64,000 nt of DNA from positions 24,248,501 through 24,312,500 of the forward strand of contig NC_056540.1 of NCBI RefSeq assembly GCF_910596095.1, in the 5' to 3' direction. The notes below the pieces were generated by a model. That model saw nothing but the letters and a program-made list of their open reading frames with translations. It had not been told where the DNA came from and made no database searches. The number at the start of each line of letters is the position of its first letter. Positions within the stretch are counted from its first letter, which is position 1. Of the stretch, positions 1 to 55,400 are shown piece after piece. A program made the translations under genes and the position numbers. The DNA comes from Thunnus maccoyii (taxonomy: Eukaryota > Chordata > Actinopteri > Scombriformes > Scombridae).

Positions 1-141
1 TCTTTCTCACAACATCGTGCCTAACATAGCACTCGTGCATGGTCTTGGCGCTGAGCTTTTCCCGGCTAGCATAGCACGTAGTTGAATGAGGCCGCCCCCC
101 ATCTGCTTCCCTAACGGTGGGAAGAGAGGCAGGGGTGCCAG

Positions 142-170
142 CTGAACGAGTGCTTTCTGCACTCGTTCAG
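142..170. repeat. Perfect 12-bp inverted repeat present only in unit A
   Basis: CTGAACGAGTGC, loop TTTCT, GCACTCGTTCAG. In unit B (about 8438-8452) the second arm and loop are missing. Confidence 0.85.
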
Positions 171-679
171 AGGCTGTGCACTCTTACTCAGCCTCTGTGA
201 TGAGCTGAATGAAGCAGGCTGGGCCGCTATCATCACAGTGTCATGGAGGGCCTGAGAGGTGGTAGAGGGAAGGGTGGAGGATTTTGCTCTTTGATGGAAA
301 ATGTCATTTGTTTTATTAAAACATTTTCAACACAGCAGAACACATGAACATGAACAGTGGTGGGAGGGGCCAGTGAACTCCACTGACACATTCAGGTGGG
401 GCGCTGTTGAACAGAACCCATGCTGATATGATGCTCTCTCCCACTGACAGTCACTTCAGTGCTGCTGCTCTCCCTACATGCAGGGCTTCTGTGTGGGACT
501 GTCGGCATTTTTCATTCTGGCATGGGCCGCTCCACGGTTACGGACAGCAGAGGGAAGGAGGGAACAGAAAGGGGAGGGAAGAGAGATGAAAGGAAGGGAA
601 GGAGTGGCTACCAAGTCAAAGTTGACTTAATCCATATGTACACATGATAATTCACCAATCTCTCTGTCTCCTCTCTCTC

Positions 680-744
680 TTTCTCCCTCCCTCTCTCTCT
701 CTCTCTCTATATATATATACACATATATATATGTGTGTGTGTGA

Positions 745-817
<73 letters not shown>

Positions 818-820
818 CAT
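680..820. repeat. (CT)n/(TA)n microsatellite
   Basis: A (CT)n run to about 708 followed by a (TA)n run to about 810. Unit B has the matching tract at 8962-9123, with an added (TG)n block at 9039-9058. Confidence 0.95.
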
Positions 821-1671
821 TTGGTGTGAATGCAGCCTTACAAAGACAAAAACTAATGACACTTTTCAGTGGTCCTAAACAACAACCAAATATACATAAG
901 CCTATGACAAGTATCAACAGTATGAGCTGGGATGTTTCAACATGGACAACTGACCATCAATGTAGCAGGTTACTGTTAACATATAACTTTAATTATTCTG
1001 TCATAATGTGTTAAAGAAGTTTGTGATGCTATCTATCCAGATATGCTAACTATCCAGGCTGCTTACAAGATTAGTGAAGGTTATTACTTGTTTACCATTA
1101 ACCCTGCAGTGTTTTTTTCAGTACAGTTAATATCAGATTTACCAAGAACCCCCGAACTCTGACCACCTGACCTCAAACAAACGCCTACAGGAATGCAGTT
1201 TCTTTTGCCTGTATTTAGTCATAAGCTCTATTTTCATATTCATATCTCATGGTCACAGGTTGCCATTTGTCATTTGTGATAGGTTGCTAAGCTTCAAGAG
1301 GGCAGGTCTTATCTAATATGTGTCTGTCACATATTAGAGAGCAGACACCAGGAGATGAGAGTAGAGATATGGACGTATGAGAATGGCATGCTACTGTTTG
1401 AAGCAACTTTTGGTCTAGTTTCTGTCTGCGTCTATTTGTTAATCTAAATGAACTGAAACCAACACTGAACTCAGTGCATCAATAGCAACACAGGAAGAGG
1501 GTCACGTAGTCGAGTGAGGCCCAGATCCTGTTGTTGGCAATCAAGGCTTTTAGTATTTTGGAGTGGTAGTAACCGGTACAGCCGTAAGACTTAGCAGTGA
1601 TTGAAACCAAGTATTTGCAGTCTTCACATTATCAGGGATCATCATCATTACCATTGAATTGCATCATACAC

Positions 1672-2080
1672 AATGACTGTTACGCGCATAAAACGAAGGA
1701 AATACTTCCACAGGCAGTTCAAAACCAGTTTGTCTCATATGTTCCGCGACCATGGCTATTGTGAAGTGCCTTTACAGACAAAGTACAAATCTTTTGAGCA
1801 AACACAGTGTGAGCAGCACATTTAGCAGCAGTAGCAGCAGTGAGTCAACTGTTGTGTCTACACAGGAGGCGTTCAGGTACATGGTGGAGTGTAGGTCACG
1901 CGCGTTTTGGAAGCGCTCAGAACACAATACATAATGACTGTAGTTATGCGCCTAAAACAAAGTAAATACTTCCAACGGGCAGTTCAAAACCAGTTTGTCT
2001 CTTATGATCCGAGAATGTGGCGATTGTGGAGCGCCCCGACAGACAAAGCACAAATCTTTGGAGCAAACATACCCACTATG
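1672..2080. repeat. Internal direct repeat of about 135 bp (also in unit B near 9980-10370)
   Basis: 1672-1805 and 1930-2080 share cacaatgact, the aaatacttcca motif and ggcagttcaaaaccagtttg, separated by a serine-codon-like agcagcagtagcagcag stretch. Unit B keeps the structure but a 14-bp indel changes the frame. No protein family recognised. Confidence 0.6.
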
Positions 2081-3001
2081 CCTTCCAGACAGAAAATAGA
2101 AACATTTTAAGAGACCAATACGATTGATCCACTTCATTTTAGGATGCACATTGTTTTATTTTTTAAATGCAGCCCTTATTTTACTTGAAATGAGAAAAGA
2201 ATATCTATTTACTGTCAGAGTATTAATTATTTATAACATCTGTATATAATATAATGTTAGTTCTTTCATGTTGTTGGTGTATATACTCATTCACACCTCA
2301 CATCAACTGTGTTAATTTTTCTATGCTTTGAATTAGCGGCTGGAAGCCAAGCAATCGGCCCGTTCTGAACAGACACTGCACTAGTTCATCATTAAACAAG
2401 ACATTCAGTCAGTCAGTCAAACTTTATTAAACTAGAGGCAAACTACACTGATTGTGATTTTTAAAATAAACACATCATGGCTAAAATTAAGATAGATGAG
2501 AATGTAAAAAAGATGTAAAAAAGTGTTTGGGAAAGAATAGTGCAGTAAAGGTTAAACGTTGTGTTCTTAATTTAATCATTAGTTTGGTATCTGTTGTCAT
2601 AATGTATATTTCTTAATTAAGAAGAAAGCACAGCTACACAACCACCAATTCATTTTAATGCAATACTTTGGCATGGCATTGAAACAGATGTGGGTCATGG
2701 AGGAAATTAATAGACTTAAAAATACGAAATATACACTCTGATAAAAACTCACACAATAAAACAAACATTCATAGATGTGGGACACCTACTCTATAGGTCT
2801 ATCACCAAGAACTCATTTCCTTAAACATATACAGTATATACATGTATAAATGAAATGGCAAAAGTAAATATAATACATGTTGCAGATTATCAACAAAAAA
2901 AAAAAATTCACCAACTCAAGAGCTGAATGTGTACATCAGTATATCTCCCACACAATGTGCCATACAAACATTATATAAGCATCAAATTTGTGTTTAGACT
3001 G

Positions 3002-4652
3002 TTAATTCAACCTGAGAGCACTGGCATCAGTGTAGATGATATCTTCCTCTGCAGTTTTTCTATCCCTTGTCCTGGATTTGCGAGATTTGCTTATGAAGGT
3101 TGGTGCAGAATAAACCAATGAGTCCTCGTCTCTCTGAGTATAATATAAAACATATAAGAAATATATGTCTCAAAAGTGAAATAGAAGATGTCAAAATTTA
3201 TTTAGAGAGAAAAACATATTGATAAGCTTTCCAGCTACATTTTATGCTTGTATACCTTACCTGCCAACTTTGCTGAACACCACTGGCTGCAGTATTTGTG
3301 TGCAGATCAACTGCAGCTGTATTATAAAATAAAAACACAACACTCATAAGAATCATGTGAATCTAATTTTGCCAAATATGTTTGATTAATCAATGTATGA
3401 GTGACTTCTCTTACTGTTACAACAGTCACAAGATTTTTTCTTGATTTTCTTGATTGAATAAATGAGAACGACTATAACAATCAGACTGAGAGCCAGAGCA
3501 GCACACAGCAGAAAGAGAACTGTATTGTCCTTCTGCAAATCACAGATGTTGACTGCTGAAACAGTATGAAAAGGTGCAAATAATGAAAGTTTAGAACGAA
3601 TAAAGGTGTAATTAATTATTTTTTTAAATTATTATTTATGTTATTTAATAAGATGTTAAAGTACATTAAGGATACAAACTAGACATAAATAGGGTAATTC
3701 CCACATTAGATAGAAATATTGTTTGATGCAGTTACCTTCAGTGTTGAGTTTTGTTCCATTTCTACTCAGTGTCTCCCCACATGTGGTCACAGCACAGTAG
3801 TGAGTCCCAGTATCAGAGCTGCTGACATTGTTCCTGGAGAAGTCGTAGACGCATTTCTGTAAAGACTGAATGTCAAGACTCTTCTCACTTCGATCATTAC
3901 TGTTTTCATGAGTATAAATAAAGCTGGCGTTAAATTTATCCAAACTGGCACTGAACCAGTAAACACTGTGTTCTTCTAGACATGTTTTGTTTGCCGAGAG
4001 GACTGAACACTGGAGAGTCACAGAGTCTCCTGGACGCACTGGCTCAGATGGAGGGACTGTGGTGATATCTGTATCTGGTCTTGGTCCTTGGAAATTGAAA
4101 AAAGGATAAAAACTTCAAAGATTAATTTATATGTTCAAGTCTGGAAATTTTATGTAAATTACGATAGACGCTTTGATGTATTTACCTTCAACTTTTAGAT
4201 GTGTTCCTCTCAAAAATATCAACTCTTGTTGTGGTGTTGTCACACAATAGTAAACTCCAGTATCACTAAGCTTTGCTTGAGTAATACGCAGAACAAATTT
4301 TCCAGATTCTCGTTTGGCTGTAATGCGAGGATCATCCTCAGAGCCATATGGTCTTCCGAAGACCTGAGGCACATTTCCAGAAACAAGTTTGATCCAAAGC
4401 AAGGTTTCAGCGAACTTGCGGGGACATGTCATTGTCACATAACGTCTAACACCAACAGTCTGTGTCTCATAGATCCAATCGTCTGCACATCCTGAGAAGA
4501 CATTAAACAAGAATCATATACACTGTCTCCTAAGTTACTGTAAGAAGATGACAATACTTTAAATATACTGTATATCTGGAGTAAATCTGACCTTTCTACA
4601 TATACTTACGCCCAACTCTGTGCATTAGCAGTAAATAAAGTATGATCAGCAT
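3002..4652 (-). CDS. NITR-like receptor 1 (V + I Ig domains, TM, degenerate ITIM tail)
   Basis: Six exons on the minus strand: 4652-4610 signal peptide, 4491-4186 V-type Ig, 4086-3736 I-type Ig, 3555-3415 transmembrane, 3316-3261 and 3133-3002 tail. All introns are GT-AG, phases 1,1,1,1,0, giving 342 aa with no internal stop. Residues 15-116 form the V domain (TCPR cysteine, LLWIKL tryptophan, DTGVYYC). Residues 117-233 are the I domain, with extra cysteines (KTC, KCVY, TTC) and CAVTTCGE, a NITR hallmark. The J-like F-G of the I domain is replaced (SRNGTKL). The TM (FLLCAALALSLIVIVVLIY) has no charged residue and is followed by KKKSCDCCN, a possible palmitoylation site. Tail tyrosines LVYSAP and IIYTDA miss the ITIM consensus at +3, so signalling sign is uncertain. 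Family membership is established-knowledge recognition; ligand is unknown. It is the older-position copy of the tandem pair with 11175-12825. Confidence 0.88.
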
Positions 4653-4759
4653 TTTCCTGTTAATCCACTTGAGACTGCAGTTAAATCATACTGTATTAGA
4701 AGAGGATTCGCCTCAATGTAATCATATCAAGTGGGAGGGAACAATTTCAGAGCAACCTG

Positions 4760-4764
4760 ATTGG
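4760..4764 (-). promoter_or_regulatory. CCAAT box of receptor 1
   Basis: CCAAT on the minus strand, about 108-112 bp upstream of the ATG at 4652, in a block conserved at the 11175, 61685 and 46.3-kb copies (gggagggaacaattt next to it). No clear TATA box is visible. Confidence 0.5.
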
Positions 4765-5169
4765 CCTCTAACTACGTTGATGTTTCACTGTACCACAGTG
4801 GAAATAATCTTGACTAGCTTTCAAAACACATGACACAAAACCAGCATGAACCCCTCTCATCTCATATTTGATTCTCATTGTGGGTTTCTATAACTGCCAC
4901 TTACAGTAAACATGACAGATCTTTTGTTTACAATATCTCTGCTGTAAATATAAGGTACAAAAACAAAAGAAAGTTTTTTTTAAATATCATGGCTCTTATT
5001 TCACTTGATCTTGATGTGAAATAATCTCCCACTGTCAATATATAGATGGACTTTTCTGCTGATAGGCTTGTGTGAAAATGCCATCCAAGCTGTTGAAGCC
5101 ACACACAAATATTTCCAACTTAAATATCATTTTATCCTGTGGGGTCATGTATCAAGTATATGTGCCCCA

Positions 5170-5520
5170 TTTCCCTTAAAGGGGAACTCCACCAATTTTA
5201 CACATCAAAGTCTGTTTACATGTGTTGGGGAGTACTACTTCATGAGTGAAAAAAGTTTGTATAAAAAGCGTTTTGTGGCTGCAGGGGATGCTTCACAGAG
5301 TTTCATAAATTACCTCAAGTAATGTCACTTGAGTCAGCATCAGTTGGGGCTGAAGACTACTAGGTTTGAAAATGAAAAAATTCTCAGGCTGTGGAGTTAG
5401 AAAGAAGTGAGTTTACCAGGCCTCTGTAGCCAGCTGCTCATCTCTGCTTGAGCCTAGTGGCTAAAGGCTACATTAACCACTACTTGCATAATGCACCCTG
5501 ATCTGCACAGTCAAGTGAAT
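5170..5520. repeat. Teleost dispersed repeat pieces (second copy 13345-13690)
   Basis: cccttaaaggggaactccac leads one widely dispersed teleost element; a second block near 5420-5500 (gagcctagtggctaaaggct) looks similarly repetitive. Both recur in unit B because of the tandem duplication. The rest of 4765-7360 holds no gene I can identify. Confidence 0.5.
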
Positions 5521-6376
5521 CAAGTCAATTTGCATTGTGGGTAATGTAGGCATGAGGTTTTGACAAGGACGACAAATGTATGGAATAAAAAATACGATAT
5601 CTCTGGTTGTGCTGCATCAATTGTCATCCTTTTTTTTAACTATCCGTCGAGAGTCTGATAATGTTATGAGTGCAATACTAAATCAATGGATTACTCTTTT
5701 AGCACAATACAGTACATTGTACTGTTTTGTACGTATTGCTCTGTCTCACTGTCATTCACTGTAGCACTACCATATTTATGGGGGGATGTGACCTGGTTTC
5801 TAAAATCCCTGAAATAGATTGTCTGAATTTATTGTCTTGATTTTGAGTCTTTTCACAAACACCCAAGATTACATCAATGATGAAGACAATGTTGACTTCA
5901 AATGTTTGATGCCATTTTTTACAGCATAGTTAAGACATGGTTAAGGTGAAGCAACTGCATGTTTTGATCTGAGAGAGGGAGGTGAATCTGGGAGAAAGCC
6001 CAATTAAATTCAGCGAATAAAGAATCAGGGCCGAAATGTGAACTCAAGACCTTGCTGCTGTGAGGCAGCATGTTTATGACAGAGAGACTAGACTAGAAGC
6101 TTTTCACTTAGAGTAAAAATACCAACTTAATTAACATAAAGAAAACCTTGGCTAACTCACTGGTGAACACCCTAGTCAGAACAGGAACACACATTGCTCT
6201 CTCTTTGACCTTACAGTCACCCTGACGCTGCATAAGACAAATACACAGTGAAATACAGAGAGAGTGCACAGAGGAGAAGTAACAGTTACAAAATTCAAAA
6301 GTCCTGTGATGAATACTTTTATGTGCTTTGTGTCCTGCTTTGTACTTTATACTTTACCCTTGCGCACGCATGCACA

Positions 6377-6412
6377 ACCACATACACACACACAAACACA
6401 CAAACACACACG
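6377..6412. repeat. (CA)n microsatellite, conserved in module flanks
   Basis: The same flank carries (CA)n tracts at 14563-14597, 31879-31930 and 43850-43880, so the tract predates the duplications. Confidence 0.85.
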
Positions 6413-7360
6413 CTTAGTTACAGTTTGTTTACTGGAACAATGTATGGAAAGTTTAGTATTATTGTGGTTCCTCTTTTAAAATAAGTTGTGAATTCAAAAG
6501 GGGCTCTTCTTCCTGTCCCACTCTCAGTCTGAAGTCTGAGCACAACTGAGCACAACTGTTTGACCTGTTCATCAAGGCAAATGCAATAACATTACATGAT
6601 TGTATCATCACAACCATTTACAGGAGTAGACAGGGGTTTTTGCTTTTTAATGATAGTTGCTGTGAGAAGATGCCACAAGGATCTGGATGAGACCATCATT
6701 CTTTTGAATGAGACAATTGTGAAAGTGCTGACGCAAGTGGTCTGGCAAAAAAGCTGAACCTGGCCAACCTTCCAGGGCTGTAAAATCCTTCATCATTGCA
6801 TCACATTACAAAAATTCTTGTTGCTTACAAAATTGAAGATACATTTAGTTATCACGCATGGGTCGCAAGTATGATGGTGTTTTGATAAGTGAAATGTGTC
6901 CAAATTAAAGAGAGAGGGAATGTTGCAAATTTCAGCTTGCATATTGCACACTTTGTGAAATGAACTCCAGGACTGTATTTCATCATCTCTCTGTTATCTA
7001 AAGCAACACACCTGCACTAACCCCCTGCTTTTTTTAATGCAAGGCTGTTTTCCGTATGAATGCCCACTTACTGGCACATCTTCAATATCAAGCACCTCCA
7101 CTTCACTTACCCTTCATAAAACCATGGAACCAAAAGGTAAAATACACGGTCATAATAACTCTCTGAAGTCAGCGTAATCAGCAAGGCTGTCATCACCAAG
7201 TGTTGTCTCCTAACTCCCAAAAACCCTCATGACAGGAGGAAACAGCTGTTGCATATACTTTAACAGTGGCATGAATCAGCCCCTTTTCAACCAGATATTG
7301 TAGAAAACCTTTCTCACTGCACATGTCAGGAGGTCTAATCTCCTTTACTCATACCAGCGT

Positions 7361-7960: not shown

Positions 7961-8961
7961 TGTTGCTTTACTCCTTAAGGGGGAGATAATGCTGCTGGCC
8001 ACGCCATCATTAACCCGAGAAATAAGCTGTGTGTGCTGGTCCCATGAGGGATGACGACAAGATCAGCGGGAGACAATGTTGACACTAAGTAGACATGTAG
8101 TGTCCTCTCCCCGCCCAATGTGTGTGCACAAAGCTTTATTCCTCAGTGAAGAGGTAACATTGCTAGATGCATCATCATTAGATGCATCACCGTTAGACTC
8201 ATCACCATTAGCTGGAGAGATGAGCTGTGCTAGCTGGTCTAATAGATGATGCCAGGGAGCACAGTGAGAGACAGATCTGCTTCTCTGTGTCACTGTGTCG
8301 GGTGGGATGTGTTTCTTTCTCACAACATCGTGCCTAACATAGCACTCGTGCATGGTCTTGGCGCTGAGCTTTTCCCGGCTAGCATAGCACGTAGTTGAAT
8401 GAGGCCGCTCCCCATCTGCAGAGAGGCAGAAGTGCCAGCTGAACGAGTGAGGCTGTGCACTCTTACACAGCCTCTGTGATCAGCTGGATGAAGCAGGCTG
8501 GGCCGCTATCATCACAGTGTCATGGAGGGCCTGAGAGGTGGTAGAGGGAAGGGTGGAGGATTTTGCTCTTTGGTGGAAAATGTCATTTGTTTTATTGAAA
8601 CATTTTCAACACAGCAGAACACATGAACATGAACAGTGGTGGGAGGGGCCAGTGAACTCCACTGACACATTCAGGGGGGTGCTGTTGAACATAACCCGTG
8701 CTGATATGATGCTCTCTCCCACTAACAGTCACTTCAGTGCTGCTGCTCTCCCTACATGCAGGGCTTCTGCGTGGGACTGCCGGCATTTTTCATTCTGGCA
8801 TGGGCCGCTCCACGGTTACGGACAGCAGAGGGAAGGAGGGAACAGAAAGGGGAGGGAAGGGAGATGAAAGGAAGGGAAGGAGTGGCTACCAAGTCAAAGT
8901 TGACTTAATCCATATGTACACATGATAATTCACCAATCTCTCTGTCTACTCTCTCTCTTTC

Positions 8962-9066
8962 TCCCTCTCTCTCTCTCTCTCTCTCTCTGTATATATATAT
9001 ATATATATGTATATATCAAAATTCTCACAGAAATTCACTGTGTGTGTGTGTGTGTGTGAATTTATG

Positions 9067-9123
<57 letters not shown>
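8962..9123. repeat. (CT)n/(TA)n/(TG)n microsatellite
   Basis: Counterpart of 680-820 in unit B. The open frames that cross it are artefacts of repeat translation. Confidence 0.95.
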
Positions 9124-9127
<4 letters not shown>

Positions 9128-11174
9128 TTGGTGTGAATGCAGCCTTACAAAGACAAAAACTAATGACACTTTTCAGTGGTCCTGAACAACAACCAAATAC
9201 ACATAGGCCTATGACAAGTATCAACAGTATGAGCTGGGATGTTTCAACATGGACAACTGACCATCAATGTAGCAGGTTACTGTGAACATATAACTTTAAT
9301 TATTATGTCATAATGTGTTAAAGAAGTTTGTGATGCTATCTATCCAGATATGCTAACTATCCAGGCTGCTTACAAGATTAGTGAAGGTTATTACTTGTTT
9401 ACCATTAACCCTGCAGTGTTTTTTTCAGTACAGTTAATATCAGATTTACCAAGAACCCCCGAACTCTGACCACCCGAACTCAAACAAACGCCTACAGGAA
9501 TGCAGTTTCTTTTGCCTGTATTTAGTCATAAGCTCTATTTTCATATTCATATGTCATGGTCACAGGTTGCCATTTGTCATTTGTGATAGTTGCTAAGCTT
9601 CAAGAGGGCAGGTCTTATCTAATATTTTTCTGTCACATATTAGAGAGCAGACACTAGGACATGAGAGTAGAGGTATGGACGTATGAGAATAGCATGCTAC
9701 TGTTTGAAGCAACTTTTGGTTTAGTTTCTGTCTGCGTCTATTTGTTAATCTAAATGAACTGAAACCAACACTGAACTCAGTGCATCAATAGCGACACAGG
9801 AAGAGGGTCACGTAGTCGAATGAGGCCCAGATCCTGTTGTTGGCAATCAAGGCTTTTAGTATTTTGGAGTGGTAGTAACCGGTACAGCCATAAGACTTAG
9901 CAATGATTGAAACCAAGTATTTGCGGTCTTCACATTATCAGGGATTATCATCATTACCATTGAATTGCATCATACACAATGACTATTACGCGCGTAAAAC
10001 GAAGGAAATACTTCCACAGGCGGTTCAAAACCAGTTTGTCTCATATGTTCCAAGACCGTGGCTATTGTGAAGTGCCTCTACAGACAAAGTACAAATCTTT
10101 TGAGAAAACACAGCGTGAGCAGCACATTTAGCAGCAGTAGCAGCAGTGAGTCAACTGTTGTGTCTACACAGGAGGCGTTCAGGTACATGGTGGAGTATAG
10201 GTCACCGCTCAGAACACAATACATAATGACTGTAGTTATGCGCCTAAAACAAAGTAAATACTTCCAACGGGCAGTTCAAAACCAGTTTGTCTCTTATGAT
10301 CCGAGAATGTGGCGATTGTGGAGCGCCACGACAGACAAAGCACAAACCTTTGGAGCAAACATACCCACTATGCCTTCCAGACAGACAATAGAAACATTTT
10401 AAGAGACCAATACGATTGATCCACTTCATTTTAGGATGCACATTGTTTTATTTTTTAAATGCAGCCCTTATTTTACTTGAAATGAGAAAATTTATTTACT
10501 ATCAGAGCATTAATTATTTATAACATCTGTATATAATATAATGTTAGTTCTTTCATGTTGTTGTTGTCATCATTAAACAAGACATTCAGTCAGTCAGTCA
10601 AACTTTATTAAACTAGAGGCAAACTACACTGATTGTGATTTTTTAAAATAAACACATCATGGCTAAAATTAAGATAGATGAGAATGTAAAAAAGATGTAA
10701 AAAGGTGTTTGGGAAAGAATAGTGCAGTAAAGGTTAAACGTTGTGTTCTTAATTTAATCATTAGTTTGGTATCTGTTGTCATAATGTATATTTCTTAATT
10801 AAGAAGAAAGCACAGCTACACAACCACCAATTCATTTTGATGCAATACTTTGGCATGGCATTGAAACAGATGTGGGTCATGGAGGAAATGAATAGACTTA
10901 AAAATACAAAATATACACTCTGATAAAAACTCACACAGTAAAACAAATATTCATAGATGTGGGACACCTACTCTATAGGTCTATCACCAAGAACTCATTT
11001 CCTTAAACATATACATTATATACTTGTATAAATGAAATGGCAAAAGTAAATATAATACATGTTGCAGGTTATTTAACATTCACCAACTCAAGAGCTGAAA
11101 TGTGTACATCAGTATATCTCCCACACAATGTGCCATACAAACATTATATCAGCATCAAATTTGTGTTTAGACTG

Positions 11175-12825
11175 TTAATTCAACCTGAGAGCACTGGCAT
11201 CAGTGTAGATGATATCTTCCTCTGCAGTTTTTCTATCCCTTGTCCTGGATTTGCATTTCTTGCTTGTGAAGTTTGCTGCAGAATAAACCAATGAGTCCTC
11301 GTCTCTCTGAGTATAATATAAAACATATAAGAAATATATGTGTCAAAAGTGAAATAGAAGATGTCAAAATTTATTTAGAGAGAAAAACATACTGATAAGC
11401 TTTCCAGCTACATTTTATGCTTGTATACCTTACCTGCCAACTTTGCTGAACACCACTGGCTGCAGTATTTGTGTGCAGATCAACTGCAGCTGTATTATAA
11501 AATAAAAACACAACACTCATATGAATCATTTGAATGTAATTTTGCCAAATATGTTTGATTAATCAATGTATGAGTGACTTCTCTTACCGTTACAACAGTC
11601 ACAAGATTTTTTCTTGATTTTCTTGATTGAATAAATGAGAACGACTATAACAATCAGACTGAGAGCCAGAGCAGCACACAGCAGAAAGAGAACTGTATTG
11701 TCCTTCTGCGAATCACAGATGTTGACTGCTGAAACAGTATGAAAAGGTGCAAATAATGAAAGTTTAGAACGAATAAAAGTGTAATTAATTATTTTTTTAA
11801 ATTATTATTTATGTTATTTAATAACATGTTAAAGTACATTAAGGATACAAACTAGACATAAATAGGGTAATTCCCACATTAGATAGAAATATTGTTTGAT
11901 GCAGTTACCTTCAGTGTTGAGTTTTGTTCCATTTCTACTCAGTGTCTCCCCACATGTGGTCACAGCACAGTAGTGAGTCCCAGTATCAGAGCTGCTGACA
12001 TTGTTCCTGGAGAAGTCGTAGACGCATTTCTGTAAAGACTGAATGTCAAGACTCTTCTCACTTCGATCATTACTGTTTTCATGAGTATAAATAAAACTGG
12101 CGTTAAATTTATCCAAACTGGCACTGAACCAGTAAACATTGTGTTCTTCTAGACATGTTTTGTTTGCCGAGAGGACTGAACACTGGAGAGTCACAGAGTC
12201 TCCTGGACGCACTGGATCAGATGGAGGGACTGTAGTGATATCTGTATTTGGTCTTGGTCCTTGGAAATTGAAAAAAGGATAAAAACTTCAAAGATTAATT
12301 TATATGTTCAAGTCTGGAAATTATATGTAAATTACAATAGACGCTTTGATGTATTTACCTTCAACTTTTAGATGTGTTCCTCTCAAAAATATCAACTTTT
12401 GTTGTAGTGTTCTCACACAATAGTAAACTCCAGTATCACTAAGCTTTGCTGGAGTAATACGCAGAACAAATTTTTCAGGTTCTCCTTTGGCTGTAATGCG
12501 AGGATCATTCTCAGAGCCATATAGTCTTCCGAAGACCTGAGGCACATTTTCAGACACAAGTTTGATCCAAAGCAAGGTTTCAGCTAACTTGCGGGGACAT
12601 GTCATTGTCACATAACTTCCAACACCAACAGTCTTTGTCTCATAGATCCAATCGTCTGCACATCCTGAGAAGACATTAAACAAGAATCATATACACTGTC
12701 TCCTAAGTTACTGCAAGAGGATGACAATACTTTAAATATACTGTATATCTGGAGTAAATCTGACCTTTCTACATATACTTACGCCCAACTCTGTGCATCA
12801 GCAGTAAATAAAGTATGATCAGCAT
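11175..12825 (-). CDS. NITR-like receptor 2 (tandem duplicate of receptor 1)
   Basis: Six exons, minus strand: 12825-12783, 12664-12359 (V), 12259-11909 (I), 11728-11588 (TM), 11489-11434 and 11306-11175 (tail). Exon lengths and phases are identical to the gene at 3002-4652; 342 aa, intact. The signal exon reads MLIILYLLLMHRVG. The V domain has TCPR, LLWIKL and DTGVYYC and a short J-like end (LRGTHLKV). The I domain has five cysteines and the same SRNGTKL replacement of F-G-N-G-T-K-L. Relative to its twin it carries 14 amino-acid changes in V but only 3 in I. The tail differs in a cluster (LVYSAANFTSKKCKS), so neither LVYSAA nor IIYTDA fits the ITIM consensus. It is probably a type I membrane receptor of immune cells with unknown ligand. 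Confidence 0.88.
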
Positions 12826-12932
12826 TTTCCTGTTAATCCACTTGAGACTGCAGTTAAATCATACTGTATTAGAAGAGGATTCACCTTAATGTAATCATAT
12901 CAAGTGGGAGGGAACAATTTCAGAGCAACCCG

Positions 12933-12937
12933 ATTGG
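12933..12937 (-). promoter_or_regulatory. CCAAT box of receptor 2
   Basis: CCAAT on the minus strand at the same distance (108-112 bp) from the ATG at 12825 as in the twin gene. Confidence 0.5.
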
Positions 12938-15007
12938 CCTCTCACTACGTTGATGTTTCACTGTACCACAGTGGAAATAATCTTGACTACCTTTCAAAAC
13001 ACGTGACACAAAACCAGCATGAACCCCTCTCATCTCATATTTGATTCTCATTGTGGGTTTCTATAACTGCCGCTTACAGTAAACATGACAGATCTTTTGT
13101 TTACAATACCTCTGCTGTAAATATAAGGTACAAAAACAAAAAAAAGTTTTTTTTTTAAATATCATGGCTCTTATTTCACTTGATCTTGATGTGAAATAAT
13201 CTCCCACTGTCAATATATAGATGGACTTTTCTGCTGATAGGCTTGTGTGAAAATTCCATCCAAGCTGTTGAAGCCACACACAAATATTTCCAACTTAAAT
13301 ATCATTTTATCCTGTGGGGTCATGTATCAAGTATATGTGCCCCATTTCCCTTAAAGGGGAACTCCACCAATTTTACACATCAAAGTCTGTTTACATGTGT
13401 TGGGGGGTACTACTTCATGTGTGAAAAAAAGTTTTTATAAAAAGGATTTTATGGCTGCAGGGGATGCTTCACAGAGTTTCATAAATTACCTCAAGTAATG
13501 TCACTTGAGTCAGCATCAGTTGGGGCTGAAGACTACTAGGTTTGAAAATGAAAAAATTCTCAGGCTGTGGAGTTAGAAAGAAGTGAGTTTACCAGGCCTC
13601 TGTAGCCAGCTGCTCATCTCTGCTTGAGCCTAGTGGCTAAAGGCTACATTAACCACTACTTGCATAATGCACCCTGATCTGCACAGTCAAGTGAATCAAG
13701 TCAATTTGCATCGTGGGTAATGTAGGCATGAGGTTTTGACAAGGACGACAAATGTATGGAATAAAAAATACGATATCTCTGGTTGTGCTGCATCAATTGT
13801 CATCCTTTTTTTAACTATCCATTGAGAGTCTGATAATGTTATGAGTGCAATACTAAATCAGTGGATTACTCTTTTAGCACAATATAGCATATTGTACTGT
13901 TTTGTACATCTTGCTCTGTCTCACTGTCATTCACTGTAGCACTACCATATTTATGGGGGGATGTGACCTGGTTTCTAAAATCCCTGAAATAGATTGTCTA
14001 AATTTATTGTCTTTTCACAAACACCCAAGATTACATCAATGATGAAGACAATGTTGACTTCAAATGTTCGATGCCATTTTTTACAGCATAGTTAAGACGT
14101 GGTTAAGGTGAAGCAACTGCATGTTTTGATCTGAGAGAGGGAGGTGAACCTGGGAGAAAGCCCAATTAAATTCAGCGAATAAAGAATCAGGGCCAAAATG
14201 TGAACTCAAGACCTTGCTGTTGTGAGGCAACATGTTTATGACAGAGAGACTACGACAAAAAAGAAGCTTTTCACTTACAGTAAAAATACCAACTTAATAA
14301 CTTAACATAGCACCCTAGTTAGAACAGAAACAGGAACACACAAGGCTCTCCAGCACAACAACACAAAGAGCTCTGGCATCAAAAAATGACCTTACAGTCA
14401 GATTAAGGATTCCTGGACACTGCATAAGACAAATACACAGTGAAATATACAGAGAGTGCACAGAGGAGAAGTAACAGTTACAAAATTCAAAAGCCCTGTG
14501 ATAAATACTTTTATGTGCTTTGTGTCCTGCTATGTACTTTATACTTTCTCTTTGTGCACGGACACACACGCACACACACGCACACACACGCACACACTTA
14601 GTAACAATCTGTTTACTGAAAGAAACAATGTATGGAAAGTTTAGCATTGTTGTGGGGCTTTAAATATAAGGTGTGAATTCAAAAGGGGCCCTTCTTCCTG
14701 TGTCACTCTCAGTCTGAAGTCTCAGGAAGCTGGGCTTGAGCACAACTGTTTTACATGTTCACCAAAGCAAGTGCAGTAACAATACACGATTGTATCATCA
14801 CAACCATTTACAGAAGTAGACAGAGGTATTTGCTTTTTATTGATAGTTGCTAAGAGAAGGTGGATCTGAGTGAGACCAGTGACCATTATTCTTTTGAATG
14901 GGACCATTGTGAGGGTGCTGATGCAAGTGCTCTGGCAAAAAAGAAGAATCTAGCTCAACCTTCCTGAGCAGTTAATCCTTCATCATATCATGTTACACAA
15001 ATGATTG

Positions 15008-18169: not shown

Positions 18170-18928
18170 TAACAGCCCCCACCGGATGTGACCTCCTTCA
18201 TAGTAATGTTCACAGATGCACCCCTGACAGGGTGAAGGGGCACCTGCCTGTAGAGAGTGATAGGTAGTGGGAGGTCTTCAGGGTAAAACTGACATATCAA
18301 CCTTCTCGAACTTCAGGCTGTGCTCTTGGTTCTCCAAGACTGCCTGATGCGGGTTCGGGGAAGTCATGTGTCGGTAAGAACAGACATCTGCACCACGGTT
18401 GACCAAATCAACAGGCAGGGTGGAGTCCGATCCACAGCCCTGTTGAAAATGGCGGAGAACCTGTTGTTGTGGGCTTCAGAACACCTCCTGTCTCTGAGAG
18501 CCCTCCACATTCTGGGTCCAGATAACAGGGGTGCTGACGTCACATTAAGAGGCCCTCTGGCAAATGAGTGGTCTGCACCACGAGGTGGTCATCCTGATAG
18601 CCCTGGACCACTGCTCAGCGCTGTGGTACACAGAGATGGCCTGCATGTTGGTGGCCCAGCTCTGGTCCACCCCTCAAGTTTGGGGGGCCCTGTCCCAGGA
18701 GGCGAGCTTGATAGGCGCACTGCCTACGTTGGGCCAGCCTCTCCAGGCTTGTCTCCTGAGAAGGACAGACTCATGTGGGCTGAACTGTCTGCACAGGTGG
18801 TACAGACCATCCAGGCAGCGAGAGCAGGATCCACCATTGTTTGCTACAAAGCAAAGTAGTTGTGATTCCTATGCTTGTGTGAGGAAAGAAGAGGAAAGAA
18901 CCGGACCCCCTGACGTGCAGTGGGGGAG
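18170..18928 (+). mobile_element. DIRS-like retroelement fragment (RT/RNase H into recombinase)
   Basis: Plus-strand frames read VRTDICTTVDQINRQGG, SLRALHILGPDNRGAD, LHHEVVILIA, and then VVQTIQAARAGSTIVCYKAK, the order RNase H then the N-terminal part of a tyrosine recombinase as in DIRS elements. The frame shifts at about 18570-18600. The fragment ends where flank homologous to 46925 begins. Inactive. Confidence 0.68.
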
Positions 18929-22412: not shown

Positions 22413-25400
22413 ATGATCCGACGACTGGCTGATTTGATTCTTCTTACTGCAGTGTGTAAGTACAATTCTTATCATGTGTAGGAAACCATGGTCTATACTG
22501 AACAGTCTGTAATAACAATGCATATGAGACAAAGCACTGTAAAAATCTTGACAAATTCTACATTTTTCATTATTTTAGTGCTGTTTTCTAGTAAGTCTCT
22601 TCTGTTTTTCTTCAGCTCTGATTCAGACTGCAGAGGTTCCTCACCTGATCTCACTGACTTTGGTTGAACCTGGTGACAATGTTACTTTTCACTGTCCAGT
22701 CTTTGAGAAGGACAAATTCTTTCACTGGTATAAGCAGCCTCTTGGACATATGGGCCAAGCAGTCGCCTCTGGACTTGTTGGCAAAATAACAGTCAGTGAA
22801 CAATTTAGAGAGTCACGTTTCACATTCACAAGAGAGGATGCTCAGTATTCTCTCATCATCAGAAATGTAAGCAAAGAGGATGAAGCGACATATTTCTGTC
22901 AAAATGGAGCATCATATTCACAGACTTTCGTCAATGGCACATTCTTGGCTGTGAACGGTAAAAATAATCTTAAATGTATCTTATGTCAATGATCATTTTA
23001 GTTTTTAAGTCATTCAAATAATTTAGATTGTGAATTCTTTTTTGTTGCATTTTTAATGTTATTTTTCTAAATCACGCAGACAACAATCAGCGCAAATCAG
23101 TCTATGTGAAACAAAGTCCGGAGACAGCATCAGTCCAGCTGGGAGACGCACTGACTCTCCAATGTTCACTGCTCTCCAAGAACACAACAGAAAACACAGA
23201 TCGGTGTCCAGGTGTACGCAGTGTGTACTGGTTCAGGTATCCTGGATCAGGAGGATTTCATCCAGGCGTTGTTTACACTCACAGGAACAGGAGTGATGAA
23301 CGTGTGGAGAGGAGCTGTGTCTACAGTCTGTCCAAAACTATACAGGACTCCTCTGATACTGGGACTTACTACTGTGCTGTGGTCACATGTGGAGAGATCC
23401 TGTTTGGTGAAGGAACTAAAGTGGACACAAGTATGTATTTACAGTTGTATTTAAAGAGATTTCGCATATGGATTTAGCAAAGTTAAAATATATTAAACTT
23501 ATAGTTTTTTTTATTAAACCGTTGTTTTATTCTAAGTTTAAGACAGTAACTTCAGTAACTTGGTGGTGATAAAAACATGATGCCAATAGTTATCAACAAA
23601 ATTTTTATCCCATTGTGTAAACTACCTTAAACATTTAATATCCAGAAATATTGAAAAAGGAATTAATTCAGTGGTAATAAATACATTGTTTTTTAGGAGA
23701 AGCATACAAACATATGTGCCTCACTCCATCTATGTGGAGTATTTCACCCAAAACTCAATTAAACATTATATTTAAACATCATAATTACTCTAGTAAACAT
23801 ACACATAAAAAGTGAAAGTAAAACTTTAACAGTTTCAGTATTCTATATTTCATTAGCAACAAACAAGGGCTGTGTTCAAAATCACTCACCATATTCACTA
23901 CTCCCTATGTAATAGACACTTAATAGTTTACTCAATAGTGAGCAGTATATCAAGATTTGAGATATTCACTAATCATTGGTGTCATCAACATCAGCTATAA
24001 GTTGTGCCACAGTATTTTCACATCTATAAAATGTGGAGCATTGCTTTGTGGGATTGTTTGCAGAAAGTAGTGTAGGCCTACATGCTATGAACACTACTGT
24101 TTTAATTCCATTGTGGAATTTTTGAGGGCACTACATAGCGGATATATATTTAACACTCTGCATTTGGACACTCAAATGAAATGGCCTAAGGTAAATGTAA
24201 TGCACTATATTGTAAACAGGCAGTAATTTCGGACACAGTCATTAGCTCCAGATAGCTAGTAAAGTGGCTAGCTTTGTTAGCAGTAAGCTGAGGACACTGC
24301 TCCAACAAGGGCATTTAAGAGATAAAAGATGTCTTTGCTTAGTCACAAATCTGATAAAAGGCTGGATGCACATGCATCATATTCACACAGTGGCCATTTT
24401 CCTGACGTCACACTCAGGGTGGGAACCTGTCATGTGAAGCTTGTGTGAGAATGGCGAGATGGTTGTGTGAACTTCATTTTTTATATGTAAAATTGATCTG
24501 ATAAGAGTTACACGGACCCACAGTTGTAATATTATTGACTTTTTAACATTTACATAAGCCAATGGATTCATTTGTCATCTGACTGCTTTAATGGCGCTAA
24601 CATTGACATTAATGTTTATTGCAGACTTCAGGTTTGCTATCCTAACATTACAGTGTTTCCAATGTGGGCCGGGCAGGCTCCGGTCTTACCTTCAACATTG
24701 TGGATGTAAGCTTCAATCCAATTGCTGTATCCTTTTTTTTTTTTTTTTTTTTTTTAAACCCTTTTGGGGATCTTGACAAATCAATTTTTATCAATTTGGT
24801 CAGAGAAAGCGATGGTAGGATTAGGTTTAGTCAAGTCAAGTTTTTCAACCATCTTGACAGGCTTTACTTGACAGTGTTCAAGTCAATCAATCAATCAATC
24901 AATTTTTATTTATATAGTGCCAAATCACAACAAAGGTCATCTCAGGGCACTTTTCACATAGAGCAGGTCTAGACCCTACTCTATAATTTACAGAGACCCA
25001 ACAATTCCCCCATGAGCAAGCACTTGGTGACAGCGGTAAGGAAAAACTCCCCTTTAACGGGTAGGAACCTCAAGCAGAATCTGGCTCTTGGTGGGCGGCC
25101 ATCTGCTTTGACTGGTTGGGTTGAGAGAGTGAGAGTGTGTGAACAAGTATTCTGTAGTGTGTGATGCACCATTATTTTCAAATCTTGTAGTGTGTGCATA
25201 TTTAGAACATCTGTGAAGTTTTTCCTTATGTGCGTGATGCAACCCGATTTCAAAATTGGTTAGGATTTTAAAACTCCTGTAGACTGAGCCCGGCTTTAAG
25301 CGGCACCTACAATAGAGTTGTGCCAGTAGTTATTATTAGCAGCAGAATGTTAAACTGAAACCAACATCAATGTACCAATTTTGCCTGCTGACAAAATGTA

Positions 25401-33363: not shown

Positions 33364-35153
33364 TCATTCCTGTTTTTGAAGTAAATAAAAGACATTGGTG
33401 TAGACACAATTTTCCTCCTTTGCTTTTGCATTCCTTTTCCCTGCTTTGCCAGTTGTCTTCTTGGTCAGTGCAGAATAAACCAAATAGTCCTCATATATCT
33501 GAGGAAATACATCATGCATGTCAATATAAAAAAGTGCAAACAGACAAAACATGCTGATAACTTTTCTCGTGACATATTCTGTTTAAATTTCTTACCTGCT
33601 GACCACCACTGGCTGTTTCAGCATGTGTTTGCAGAGCAGCGGCAGCTTTATTATAAATATAATGATAATAATTAAAAACAGAAAATAATGATAGATAATG
33701 ATCAACAACAGGCTTCATTGGTTTCACTTTACCAGCGATAAATGGTCCAGTAATCTGACTTTTACACAACTCTACTATGAATCTAAAGATTTTACAGCTT
33801 TTACCAAATACTGTTTGATAGACTAACTTACCGTTGCAACAATCACAAGATTTTTTCTTAACAACCAGACTTATAGCGAAAGCAGCACACAGCAGAAAGA
33901 TAAGTGTGTTGGCCTTCTGTAAATCCCACCAGCTGACAACTGAAGCATTACGAAAAGAAGGAAATGATTTAACATTAAGAAGTAGTAATTAATAATGTTG
34001 GTATTATGATAAGATGATGTTTCATGAAGAACAAATGTTTTTGATAGTTTATCTAAAGGGATTGTACTTGACTCCTGATAAAACACACACATATATGATA
34101 ATCTCACCATTATACAGAAATTAATTTACCTTCAATGATGAGTTTAGTTCCATTTCCAAATAATATCTCTCCACATGTGGCCACAGCACAGTAATAAGTC
34201 CCATCATCAGAGGAGCTGACGTTTTTAGAGAAGCGATAGACACAGCTCTTTGGAGACGAGTGAATGCCAGTTTTCTTTCTACATTCATCACGGCTACTTC
34301 CATCAGCGTAGATGAGGAGGTCTGGATGAGATGCATCTGATCCGGCTCTGAACCAGTAAACACTGTGTACTCCTGGACACGTCTTGTTCTCGTATTCAGA
34401 GAGGATTGAACACTGGAGAGTCACAGAGTCTCCTGGACGGACTGGATCAGATACTGTCGGCCACTGAACAATAGTATAGTCTGATGTCCTTTCAGTGTTT
34501 CCTATGCAATGCAAAAATGTTAAAATTTTTAGATCACTTTTGAAAATATAAATTTATGTTTTGTGATGAAATTAGGAAATTTAGAGACACTTTAAAGTTA
34601 AAGTAAAATAGATCACATTATTACCTTTTACAAACAAATATGTCCCGCTCCATTCATAATCAATCCACTCCACGAATGCACAATGGTACATTCCCTCATC
34701 TTCTTGGGTTGTCGTCAAAATGGTCAGGTTACTAAAATTCTCGTCAGTATGTACGTTCAATCTTGAGGGAGAAAACTCTGGTTCATAATGAGGTTTTGCA
34801 GATCTATACAGTTTAACAATTAATTTCAGAGTATCACCGGCACTCTGCTTGTACCAGTAGAGATTTATTCTGCTGAGATCATAATTACGCAAAGCACATG
34901 TCAAGTTTACAGGTTCACCAAGTTGAACCATGATCACTGGAGTCAGCGTATCTGTATTAAATGAAAATATAGAATACGCATTGTAAATAACAGTTACTGT
35001 ATAATGTGCACAATGTATTATGCAAAAAGATGATTATATGAACCTCCAAACATCTTGTCAAAATGCATTCTTAGTTGTATACAGAATACACAGAATTAGA
35101 TGGCACTTACGTCCTTGATGAAGAACAAGCAGTGTTACCCATAACACGATCAT
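33364..35153 (-). CDS. NITR-like receptor 6, inhibitory (one ITIM, shortened TM)
   Basis: Six exons, minus strand: 35153-35111, 34951-34625 V, 34501-34130 I, 33939-33832 TM, 33645-33596 and 33498-33364 tail; phases as in the family; 344 aa. V (15-123): LTCALRNYDL, LYWYKQSAGDTLKL, EDEGMYHC, WSGTYLFV. I (124-247) has six cysteines, YYCAVATCGE and an intact FGNGTKL; it carries one extra leucine codon (DLLIY) relative to siblings. The TM exon has the same 8-codon deletion as the 27743 and 40194 genes. The tail contains a consensus ITIM, LVYSAL, and CVYTNV. The stop codon is 144 bp from the stop of the orphan plus-strand tail at 32491-33219, the tightest convergent spacing in the window. Start chosen because the 43-nt signal exon and donor match all paralogues. 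Confidence 0.87.
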
Positions 35154-40193: not shown

Positions 40194-42138
40194 TCATTCC
40201 TGTTTTTGAAGTAAATAAAAGACATTGGTGTAGACACAATTTTCCTCCGTTGCTTTTGCATTCCTTTTCCCTGCTTTGCCAGTTGTCTTCTTGGTCAGTG
40301 CAGAATAAACCAAATAGTCCTCATATATCTGAGGAAATACATCATGCATGTCAATATAAAAAGGTACAAACAGAAAAAAAACATGCTGATAACTTTTCTC
40401 GTGACATATTCTGTTTAAATTCCTTACCTGCTGACCACCACTGGCTGTTTCAGTATGTGTTTGCAGAGAAGCGGCAGCTTTATTTTAAATATAATAATGA
40501 TAATTAAAAACAGAAAATAATGATAAATAATGATCAGCAACACAGGCTTCACTGGTTTTACTTTATCTTTGATAAATGGTCCAGCAATCTGACTTATACA
40601 CAACTCTACTATGAATCTAAAGATTTTACAGCTTTTACCAAATACTGTTTGATAGACTGATGTTTGAGTAGTTTCCTTAACTTACCGTTGCAACAATCAC
40701 AAGATTTTTTCTTAACAACCAGACTTATAGCCAATGCAGCACACAGCAGAAAGATAAGTGTGTTGGCCTTCTGTAAATCCCACCAGCTGACAACTGAAGC
40801 ATTACGAAAAGAAGGAAATGATTTAACATTAAGAAGTAGTAATTAATAATGTTGGTATTATGATAAGATGATGTTACTTGAAGAACAAATGTTTTTGTTA
40901 GTTGATCTAAAGGGATTGTACTTGACTCCTGATAAAACACACACATATATGATAATCTCACCATTATATAGAAATTAATTTACCTTCAATGATGAGTTTA
41001 GTTCCATTTCCGAATAATATCTCTCCACATGTGGCCACAGCACAGTAATAAGTCCCAGCATCAGAGGAGCTGACGTTTTTAGAGAAGCGATAGACACAGC
41101 TCTTTGCAGATGAGTGAATGCCAGTTTTCTTTCTACATTCATCACGGCTACTTCCATCAGCGTAGATGATGTCTGGATGAGATGCATCTGACCCGGCTTT
41201 GTACCAGTAAACACTGTGTACTCCTGGACACGTCTTGTTCTCAGAGTCAGAGAGGACTGAACACTGGAGAGTCACAGCGTCTCCCGGACGGACTGGATCA
41301 GATGGAAAGTCTTGAGTGATGGCAGTGATATCAGGTTCTGGTCCTGTGGTATTGAAAATAAAAATATTAAACTTATTTTGTATACTTGAGTGAAATTATG
41401 TAGACATTCATTTATATACAAAAACATTTTCCTATAAATTATCGGCCACTGAACAACAGTATAGTTTGATGTCCTTTCAGTGCTTCCTATGCAATGCAAA
41501 ACTGTTAAAATTTTGAGATCCACATACACATTTTTAAAATAGAAATTTAAGTTTTGTAATGAAATTGGGAAATTTAATGGCACTTTAAAGTTAAAGTAAA
41601 ATAGATCACAGTATTACCTTTAACTAACAAATATGTCCCGCTCCATTCAGTATTCGTCCACTCCATGACTGCACAATGGTACATCCCCTCGTCTTCTTGG
41701 GTTGTCTTCAAAATGGTCAGGTTACTAAAATTTTTATCAGTATTTGTGTCCAATTTTGTGGAAGAAAACTCTGGTTCATACTCAGGTGTTCTAGATTTAA
41801 TCACTTTCACAATTAATTTCAGAGTATCACCGGCACTCTGCTTGTACCAGTAGAGATGTTTTAAGCTGAACTCATCATTAGGGAAAGCACATGTCAAGTT
41901 TACAGGTTCACCAAGTTGAACCGTGATCACTGGAATCAGCGAATCTGAATGAAATGAAAATATAGAATACACAACAATTATAATATAATGTACAAAATGT
42001 ATTACGCAAAAAGATGATATATGACCCTCCAAACATCTTGTCAGCATGCAAATTCTTAGTTGTATACAGAATGCACAGAATTAGATGGCACTTACATCCT
42101 TGATGAAGAACAAGCAGTGTTAGCCATAACATGATCAT
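40194..42138 (-). CDS. NITR-like receptor 7, inhibitory (chimeric I exon)
   Basis: Six exons, minus strand: 42138-42096 (MIMLWLTLLVLHQG), 41944-41618 V, 41343-40984 I, 40793-40686 TM, 40477-40428 and 40328-40194 tail; 340 aa. V (15-123): LTCAFPNDEF, LYWYKQSAGDTLKL, EDEGMYHC, WSGTYLLV. The I exon starts like that of the 61685 gene (PEPDITAITQDFPSDPV) but continues like the 33364 gene (CRKKTGIHSS), with six cysteines and FGNGTKL. A 46-bp piece of the other I-exon start survives just upstream (41441-41486). The TM has the 8-codon deletion. The tail has the ITIM LVYSAL and CVYTNV. It is convergent with the orphan TM+tail at 37890-39699. Exon choice in I is supported by a CACAG acceptor and by phase; use of the fossil acceptor would truncate the protein. 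Confidence 0.85.
41441..41486 (-). pseudogene. Fossil 5' end of an I-domain exon inside intron 2 of the 40194 gene
   Basis: On the minus strand, an intact acceptor (GCATAG) is followed by codons reading GSTERTSNYTVVQWP, the I-exon start used by the 15719, 27743 and 33364 genes. After about 46 bp it switches to intron sequence like that of the 61685 gene. The functional I exon of this gene starts further on, at 41343. It is a recombination scar that still carries a usable-looking acceptor in the right phase. Confidence 0.75.
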
Positions 42139-52410: not shown

Positions 52411-55400
52411 ATGATCCGACATCTGGCGGCTTTGATTCTTCTTACTGCAGTGTGTAAGTACAATTCTCATTAGATGTGGGAAACCATTTAGTCTGAGCAG
52501 TCTATGATAGTAATGTGTATGAGACCTTGTAAATAAATTTGAAATGAAAAAAAATTTCATTGTTTTTGTGCTGTTGTCTAATAAGTCTTTTTTGTTTTTC
52601 TTCAGCTCTGATTCAAACTGCAGAGGTTCCTCAGCTGATCTCTTTGACTTTGGTTGAACCTGGTGACAATTTTACTTTTCGATGTCCATTTTCTGACAGC
52701 GACAAATTCTTTACCTGGTATAAGCAGACTCTTGGACATATGGGCCAAACAGTCGCTTCTGGACTCGCTGGCAAAATAACAGTCAGCGAACAATTTAGAG
52801 AGTCACGTTTCACAGTCGCAAAAGGGGATGCTCAGTATTCTCTCATCATCAGAAATGTAAGCAAAGAGGATGAAGCAACATATTTCTGTCAGAAAGGAAC
52901 GTCGTTTTCTCCAACTTTCGTCAATGGCACATTCTTGGCTGTGAACGGTAAAAATAATATGTGCCTTATTGCAACAATCTTTTACATTTTTAAGTCATTC
53001 ATATAATTTAGATTGTGAATTAATTTTGTTACTTTTTTAAATGTTGTTTTACTGAATCACACAGACAACAATCAGCAGAAATCAGTCTATGTGAAACAAA
53101 GTCCGGAGACAGCATTTGTCCAGCTGGGAGACGCACTGACTCTCCAATGTTCACTGCTCTCCAAGAACACAACAGAAAACACAGATCAGTGTCCAGGTGT
53201 ACACAGTGTGTACTGGGTCAGAGCTGGATCAGGAGGATTTCATCCAGGCATCGTTTACACTCACAGGAACAGGAGTGATGAACGTGTGGAAAGGAGATGT
53301 GTCTACAGTCTGTCCAAAACTATACAGAACTCCTCTGATACTGGGATTTACTACTGTGCTGTGGTCACATGTGGAGAAATCCTGTTTGGTGAAGGAACTA
53401 AAGTGGACACAAGTATGTATTTACAGTTGTATTTAAATCATAAATAGATTTTGCATAAATGTATTTAGCCTGGTTAAAATATATTAGATTTCAGCTTTTT
53501 CTTTTTAAAAATGTATTATTAGTTTGTTGCTTTCTCCAAAGTTTTAAGCCCCCATGTATGTGCACTGCACATACAAGTGCCTTTTGCACTTGTATGTGCA
53601 GAAGCACCAAGTGCAAAAAGGCTGGGTGAAGGTGAATAAAGATCAGTTGGTATGATGATTATTAAATACTCTCTCAGCCAGTCACATTCATGGTCTCAGC
53701 TCAGAAACAGCTGTGCCAATCAAAGTTAAGCATGATAATGACAGATGAACAAAGGGAAAGCTTTTCTTTAGGAAATGTCTGCACCAAACCATGAACACAC
53801 ATCACCACAAATCTGTAGTCAAAGACGGCTGGTATAGAATTTTTCATCAGTTAGTTAGGCTACTATAACAATGTTAAAATAAAAAAAATAGAAAAACTTA
53901 ATTTGGTGAAGCCGTTTATATGATTGCATTGGACTGACACTATTTCAGCCATAATTATCATTTATAAATCAAATTTTGTTTATTAGCATTTGTCAAATCC
54001 AAAAGAAGAGGATACTTTTGACTAAATATTATACATGCTCTATGTGTAGAAAGTAAAAGTAAAAAGAGTAAAATACTTAACATCATTCCAACACTAAGTT
54101 AACAGTTATTTAGATTGTTGACAAAATGTAATTAATGCCAGCAAATGATGACTCCTGACAGTCCATTAATAAATAATGTTTAATGTCTCTTTGGAGATTA
54201 TTTGGTTCCAGGATCAGAGTTGGATCCAGTTGTCATTCTACTTGGAGCGCTGTTGGCCTGCTGTGTGACTGTGATTGCCGTCGTCATTTTCTACATTAAT
54301 GGGAGGAGAGTTTTTGAACATTGCAATGGTAGGTTCACCATATCTTACTTTTTGTTTCAGTTGAATCAAATAAAATCAAATCAACTTTATTTATATAGCA
54401 CTTAACACACAACACAGTTGATCCAAAGTGCTTCCTAGTACACAGAGAGGAAGACAAAACAAAACAAAATTAATGCTGCAAGCAGTGTTGGTCAGGACCT
54501 CGCACTCTGGCCTGTTGGGATCAGATCATTTTGCTTTTTAAAAATGAGAGATATTTCTTACAAGTGTGGTGTGCTTTTATTTTGAAAGTTTGATTGACAG
54601 GATGAGAATTTTCTGCAGGGTGAGACATGTCTGTCTTGCTCACCCCTGTGTCATCAAAATTATGCAAGTTTTGGGCCCATTCACTTGAATTTCAATTAGT
54701 AAATTAAAAACTTGCTCTTGATGAGTTTGTGTGTAAAACAAATTATTTTCCTAATTTTCATCAAGTCTATTTTTAGAAAAGGAGACTTTCAACCCACATG
54801 ACCTGGTCAAAGTTTGATTGAAATGTGTACTCTCAGGTGTGTAGAGACAATAAGTAACTGCAGCTGGACAGAAAAATACTCATATATTTGAATGGAGAGT
54901 GTGAGCGAACCCACACCTTTTTGAACGTTTACTGCCTCCACATAGTTTTAGATACAAACTCATCTTTCTTCAAAACTTTAAATGAGTCACAAGACTTTGA
55001 CCTACAAATCTTGAATTTACATGTTTTTTCTATCTTTTATTGTTTTTGAGATATTAGAGTGAGTTTTAAAGTCTTCTCTTGCTCCTTCTGTGATTTTATG
55101 AGTGTGTATTGCGGAGTGTTTCACAGCACTGAGGGAGAGACATCACCAGGAGCAGTTGGAGAGGAGGATTTTAAAGTACACTTTTTGTGAAATCTCCTCA
55201 TAAATCCCATGACTTTGTCCAAATCTTACATTAAAAATCATATTTTTAGAGGAAATTTCATTGCGAATCAATTGATACAGGTTTTGAAAGTGGTCAGACT
55301 TATAGTTTAGACATCAGAAGCCTCTATTTGACGTAAAGTTCATGCCGATAGATTGCCTCCCCATTGTTTTACATTGTAATGTGTGATGTGGCACTGCAAC

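Follow-up and report, generated by a model that had tools for sequence, protein, structure and literature searches.

Genes A and B are recent duplicates within a cluster of immune-receptor genes, and their V exons have accumulated amino acid-changing differences well beyond the divergence of the surrounding non-coding sequence. Positive, diversifying selection acting on what these V domains recognise is the likeliest cause, and we consider this explanation probable. The evidence is an excess in rate and in replacements, the placement of the changes in loops of a predicted Ig fold, and the recurrence of the pattern in a second group of genes, E, F and G. On this reading A and B are intact novel immune-type receptor (NITR) genes from a recent tandem duplication inside the gene cluster. 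Since the duplication (non-coding divergence 2.3%), their V domains have gained amino acid changes at nearly three times the neutral rate. These changes fall mostly in loops at the presumed ligand-binding end, namely CDR1-3 and the adjoining D-E loop; silent sites, the transmembrane exon and the I domain remain at or below the neutral rate. Selection of this kind would resemble that in other birth-and-death immune-receptor families. The genes would have to be expressed, the loops to bind ligand, and changing ligands or pathogens would be the presumable driver.

The window, i.e. the whole 64-kb stretch of DNA that was analysed, is a NITR-type immune-receptor gene cluster. Using tblastn and the reading-frame listing, nine gene units were found, each consisting of a V exon and, after it, an I exon. 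Units A, B, C, E, F, G and I lie on the minus strand and units D and H on the plus strand; the letters are labels coined for the present analysis. Non-coding divergence between duplicates of about 2% and of 6-7% indicates tandem clustering with recent expansion. At 46110-46150 a short, truncated V segment belonging to the A/B family (CADNQIFMTNTVGD) is probably a pseudogene.

Gene A spans about 3002-4652 and gene B about 11175-12825, both on the minus strand. Each has six exons: leader (4610..4652 in A, 12783..12825 in B), V (4186..4491 and 12359..12664), I (3736..4086, ends from splice sites, and 11909..12259), transmembrane (3415..3555 in A, ends approximate; the B copy lies at +8173 bases), a first cytoplasmic exon (3261..3316 in A, ends approximate) and a last cytoplasmic exon (3002..3133 and 11175..11306). 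In both genes frames are open and splice sites usable across the six exons, and both look intact. The V exon of gene A matches Pfam V-set (E = 1.3e-16). The last cytoplasmic exon encodes the tyrosine motifs LVYSAP and IIYTDA in A, and LVYSAA and IIYTDA in B. The last residue of an ITIM is usually aliphatic, and the A and B motifs lack such a residue when held against this consensus. No charged residue lies inside the membrane segment of A and B. A comparison of the LVYSA-type motifs (3002-3133, 11175-11306, 27773-27871, 33367-33582, 40197-40484, 61712-61819) shows that the last residue varies by copy: F and G carry LVYSAL, whereas the motif of A, E and I is LVYSAP and that of B is LVYSAA.

By their anatomy, A and B look like NITRs of bony fish. 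According to the medaka study of Desai et al. 2008 (PMC2442602), a J or J-like peptide, FGXGTXLXV, closes the V and/or I domain of NITRs. J-like ends are present in gene A, FLRGTHLKV in V and a degenerate LSRNGTKLN in I, and the I domains of E, F and G end in LFGDGSKL or LFGNGTKL. The same study describes six conserved I-domain cysteines as typical, with two members lacking one. Counted by eye from the translations, E, F and G have six such cysteines and A and B five; the I domains of A, B, D and H (3736-4086, 11909-12259, 23094-23429, 53079-53411) all seem to be without one of the six found in E, F and G.

The duplicated unit of A (1..6000) is about 2-3% different from that of B, at about 8314-14160. 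The copies begin at or before position 1 and at about 8314. Divergence stays at 2-3% up to about 6000, then rises to 12-19%, and the alignment is lost after about 6750. This jump sits within homologous sequence (6000-6755 and 14160-14945), pieces of which recur near 30.2, 31.6, 35.8 and 42.8 kb; it is possibly the recombination point of the tandem duplication.

Between the V exons of A and B we found 15 differences in 306 bases and no indel. In the minus-strand frame 14 of these are replacements and one is silent (GTT/GTG, Val), with no stop in either copy. A sequence-only reading of this DNA had given exactly these counts. Its values of about 2% for the flanking introns (4 of 218 aligned bases) and of 5 in 351 for the I exon (3 replacement, 2 silent) were likewise confirmed. 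As neutral reference we took every alignable non-coding base of the duplicate as far as position 6000, with one microsatellite masked. The two copies differ there at 107 of 4606 bases (2.3%), a rate at which 7.1 differences would be expected in the V exon instead of 15 (P = 0.0065, Poisson; P = 0.008, Fisher). The highest count among 4300 overlapping 306-column non-coding windows was 14, one short of the V exon, and the 15 non-overlapping ones showed no over-dispersion (mean 7.1, variance 4.4). The excess is sharper at replacement sites, with 14 changes seen against 5.3 expected from the non-coding rate (P = 0.0012). V-exon densities are 14 replacements per 228 sites and one silent change per about 75 sites, the latter neutral-like. 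Because silent sites show no elevation, we discarded the idea of a mutational hotspot in the V exon.

Differences in the remaining A/B exons number 1 of 40 in the leader, 1 of 144 in the transmembrane exon, 0 of 57 in the first and 8 of 130 in the last cytoplasmic exon; the masks for these counts are off by a few bases, that of the V exon is exact. The last cytoplasmic exon thus exceeds the V exon per base (P = 0.012 for its 8 differences), and fast change is therefore not unique to the V exon, which counts against the proposed selection. These 8 differences crowd into about 30 bases next to the first tyrosine motif and, on our reading, mostly replace an amino acid. They resemble a single conversion or multi-base event more than a second selected region.

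The 14:1 split alone is borderline and weak evidence. Simulated neutral mutation yields about 10.7 replacements in 15 and at least 14 in 4.1% of runs, or in 5.5% with CpG transitions five times commoner. By the Nei-Gojobori method dN is 0.064 and dS 0.013 (one-sided Fisher P = 0.078). The codon-based dN/dS comparison proposed in the sequence-only reading gave by itself a maximum-likelihood omega of 4.4 that is not significant (two-sided P = 0.081), which counts against selection. So does the comparison of replacement and silent changes between the V and I exons (P = 0.14). Fixing neutral time to the non-coding divergence gives an omega of 2.7 in the V exon (P = 0.0015) and of 0.50 in the I exon (P = 0.17). 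The rate is a better argument than the split, and the two together are stronger.

The gene A V domain was modelled with AlphaFold2, using an alignment of the nine V domains of the window. The model has a V-type fold with a mean pLDDT of 81.5. Residue numbers start at the first Cys of the V exon. CDR limits are those of IMGT numbering, and strand names combine predicted secondary structure with Ig nomenclature. The 14 A/B changes fall at residues 10 (strand A'), 15 and 16 (A'-B turn), 26 (CDR1), 38 (C-C' turn), 47 and 52 (CDR2), 60, 62 and 63 (D-E loop, HV4), 71 (E-F turn) and 84, 86 and 89 (CDR3). CDR1-3 thus contains 6 of the 14 changed residues (P = 0.039). Together with HV4 the count is 9 of 14 (P = 0.0008), residues 60-63 having been delimited as HV4 only after the RESGK/GEPEK cluster was known. 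Five of the 14 lie elsewhere and count against concentration in these loops. Strands are avoided, with 11 of 14 changes in loops (P = 0.01), and 9 of 14 replacements alter charge, compared with 35% expected (P = 0.024). The earlier reading had pointed to a cluster of three close codons and to further changes near the CDR3 end. The latter are indeed in CDR3 of the predicted fold; the cluster is real (codons 60, 62 and 63) and belongs to the D-E loop, not to a CDR.

A second test of the pattern comes from genes E, F and G (V codons 29025..29342, 34626..34949 and 41619..41942, all minus strand), whose V domains form a different family, with 22-25% identity to that of A. Their V exons diverge by 11.7-13.3%, nearby non-coding sequence by 5.6-7.3%, and the excess is significant in all three pairs (P = 0.0001, 0.0031 and 0.0007). 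Fitted with one omega on a three-gene star tree, V omega is 2.07 (P = 0.032), and 1.07 in the I exon of E and F. Across the three pairs pN is 0.24-0.32 and pS 0.02-0.08 in CDR1-3, and pN is 0.075-0.086 and pS 0.079-0.118 in the framework. The corresponding CDR1-3 values for A and B are 0.126 and 0. In E, F and G, 20 of 37 changed columns lie in CDR1-3 (P = 0.0001).

A joint fit to A/B and E/F/G gave a shared V omega of 2.3 (P = 0.0077). With two classes of sites, CDR1-3 has an omega of 5.2 and the framework one of 1.4; two classes fit better than one (P = 2e-7), and the CDR omega is above 1 (P = 5e-7). These two-omega fits were repeated from other starting points, and converged values were used. 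The P value for the shared omega depends on the assumed transition/transversion ratio, being 0.049 at 1.5, 0.0077 at 3 and 0.0017 at 5. The A/B non-coding sequence shows 73 transitions and 34 transversions, corresponding to a ratio of about 4.3.

Genes D and H (V codons 22615..22956 and 52605..52946, plus strand) are older copies and do not follow this pattern. Their V omega is 0.54 and their CDR omega about 0.8, which counts against selection, and no CDR excess of changed residues was found between them (7 of 19, P = 0.17). Once this pair is included in the joint fit, the whole-exon signal disappears (omega 1.3, P = 0.24). The pattern is therefore present in two of three comparisons, replacement rate exceeding silent rate in the presumed ligand-contact loops of A/B and E/F/G and not of D/H. 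The earlier claim of a V domain that changes faster than neutral sequence, and nearly only at the protein level, accordingly holds for A and B, recurs in E, F and G and is concentrated in CDR1-3; as an argument from the single pair and its split it was weak (P about 0.04-0.08). Diversifying selection on V domains, as proposed there, is supported in these two groups and does not extend to D and H, and the faster last cytoplasmic exon qualifies it in A and B themselves.

The direction of change was read against gene I (V codons 63011..63337, minus strand), the nearest V relative of A and B in the window, though only 67-68% identical to them. Gene I agrees with B at residues 10, 15 and 62, and with A at 38, at 63 (amino acid only) and at the silent codon 36; nine other codons are undirected. 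Since the states matching gene I are split between A and B, both copies have changed. For the same reason gene I was rejected as a conversion donor. The 15 differences are evenly spaced (clustering test, P = 0.92), so a single short converted tract is not suggested.

Neutral drift of the V domain after duplication, under relaxed constraint, could let replacements dominate simply since most sites are replacement sites, and the simulated runs show that neutral mutation alone comes near the observed split. Drift cannot, however, outpace the non-coding rate, as both the exon as a whole and its replacement sites do. Intact frames and splice sites, the avoidance of strands and the repetition of the excess in E, F and G also argue against it, and we regard relaxed constraint as unlikely. 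Gene conversion is hardly more attractive, and we rate it marginally lower. It would have raised the divergence of the exon by V sequence or patches from an unseen paralogue, without selection on new mutations. Such clusters do recombine, as the apparently chimeric I exon of gene G and the abrupt change of A/B divergence near 6000 suggest, and the search for donors covered the 64-kb window. Yet a donor should have imported silent changes as well, of which there is a single one in about 75 sites, and neither the even spacing of the changes nor the low identity and split matches of the closest other V in the window fits a transfer.

That the V exon was picked because it looked odd, so that chance and the choice of the most extreme exon explain the result, would agree with the borderline split and with the missing pattern in D and H. 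This we think very improbable: the rate test would withstand a correction for six exons (0.0012 times 6), and E, F and G, which lay outside the original observation, subsequently showed the CDR pattern as well. Recent tandem copies are difficult to assemble, and errors of assembly or sequencing in one copy might mimic divergence. All 15 differences are substitutions, though, with no indel and no stop, and random errors would not prefer loops; we give this explanation almost no credence. A variant that keeps positive selection on the V domain holds that signalling by A and B has decayed, as the absence of a standard ITIM and of a charged membrane residue and the loss of one I-domain cysteine might indicate. 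It is a doubtful proposition, if somewhat less so than relaxed constraint. Were it true, binding alone would be selected, the receptor serving as decoy or adhesion partner, and both tails would have been remodelled meanwhile.

Diversifying selection on V domains agrees with what has been described for this family. Medaka NITRs are V+I type I receptors with ITIM-like tails, in tandem clusters with highly divergent V domains and gene birth and death (Desai et al. 2008, PMC2442602). A and B share with them J-like ends, tyrosine-bearing tails, tandem clustering and the placing of V and I on different exons, which is one of the two arrangements given in that account; they differ in their degenerate tyrosine motifs and in having, by eye, five I-domain cysteines instead of six. 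For the NITR cluster of European sea bass, the title of Ferraresso et al. 2009 (cited in PMC2837037 and PMC11088111) claims positive selection, and by that title alone the two clusters would have positive selection in common. The Discussion of PMC2442602 draws an analogy to mammalian KIR, clustered Ig receptors that evolve fast and come in an activating and an inhibitory form. KIR are a separate family and are likened here by description, not by sequence.

The predicted fold of gene A matches V structures of catfish NITR10 and NITR11 (2qhl, 2qjd, 2qqq, 2qte, 3bdb) at 29-30% identity; these five chains are among the best 50 Foldseek matches listed and have among the highest identities there. 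Many antibody and T-cell-receptor V domains score alike, and the fold alone therefore does not decide the family. A sequence search of solved structures gave 416 matches, of which the best 60 are nearly all antibodies. An NCBIfam search with four exon translations returned no family.

Since V-domain diversity of NITRs is well known (PMC2442602) and Ferraresso et al. 2009 name positive selection in their title, the A/B pattern is a new instance of a known NITR pattern, and the accepted picture of NITR evolution is unaltered. It offers a clean case, within a single stretch, for a direct comparison of neutral sequence, a slow I domain and a fast V domain in recent copies. The changed residues are candidate contact sites for NITRs, whose ligands were still being sought in PMC2442602.

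Plus-strand transmembrane-like stretches occur at 25431-25805, 37742-38203 and 54184-54402, and plus-strand cytoplasmic stretches with ITIM-like VNYTAL or VNYTAV at 27003-27233 and 39475-39696. For those near 37.7-39.7 kb the search detected no plus-strand V or I exon in the vicinity, and they may be remnants carried in the E/F/G duplications. Tandem Repeats Finder reported no repeats at score 150. Two open stretches (56538-58611 and 18293-18856) resemble retroelement remnants, with reverse transcriptase-like and RNase H-like sequence by eye. In gene G (40985-41613) the I exon has a gene I-like start, GPEPDITAITQDFPSDPV, with a remnant of an E/F-type start, STERTSNYTVVQWP, just upstream, and is perhaps a recombinant.
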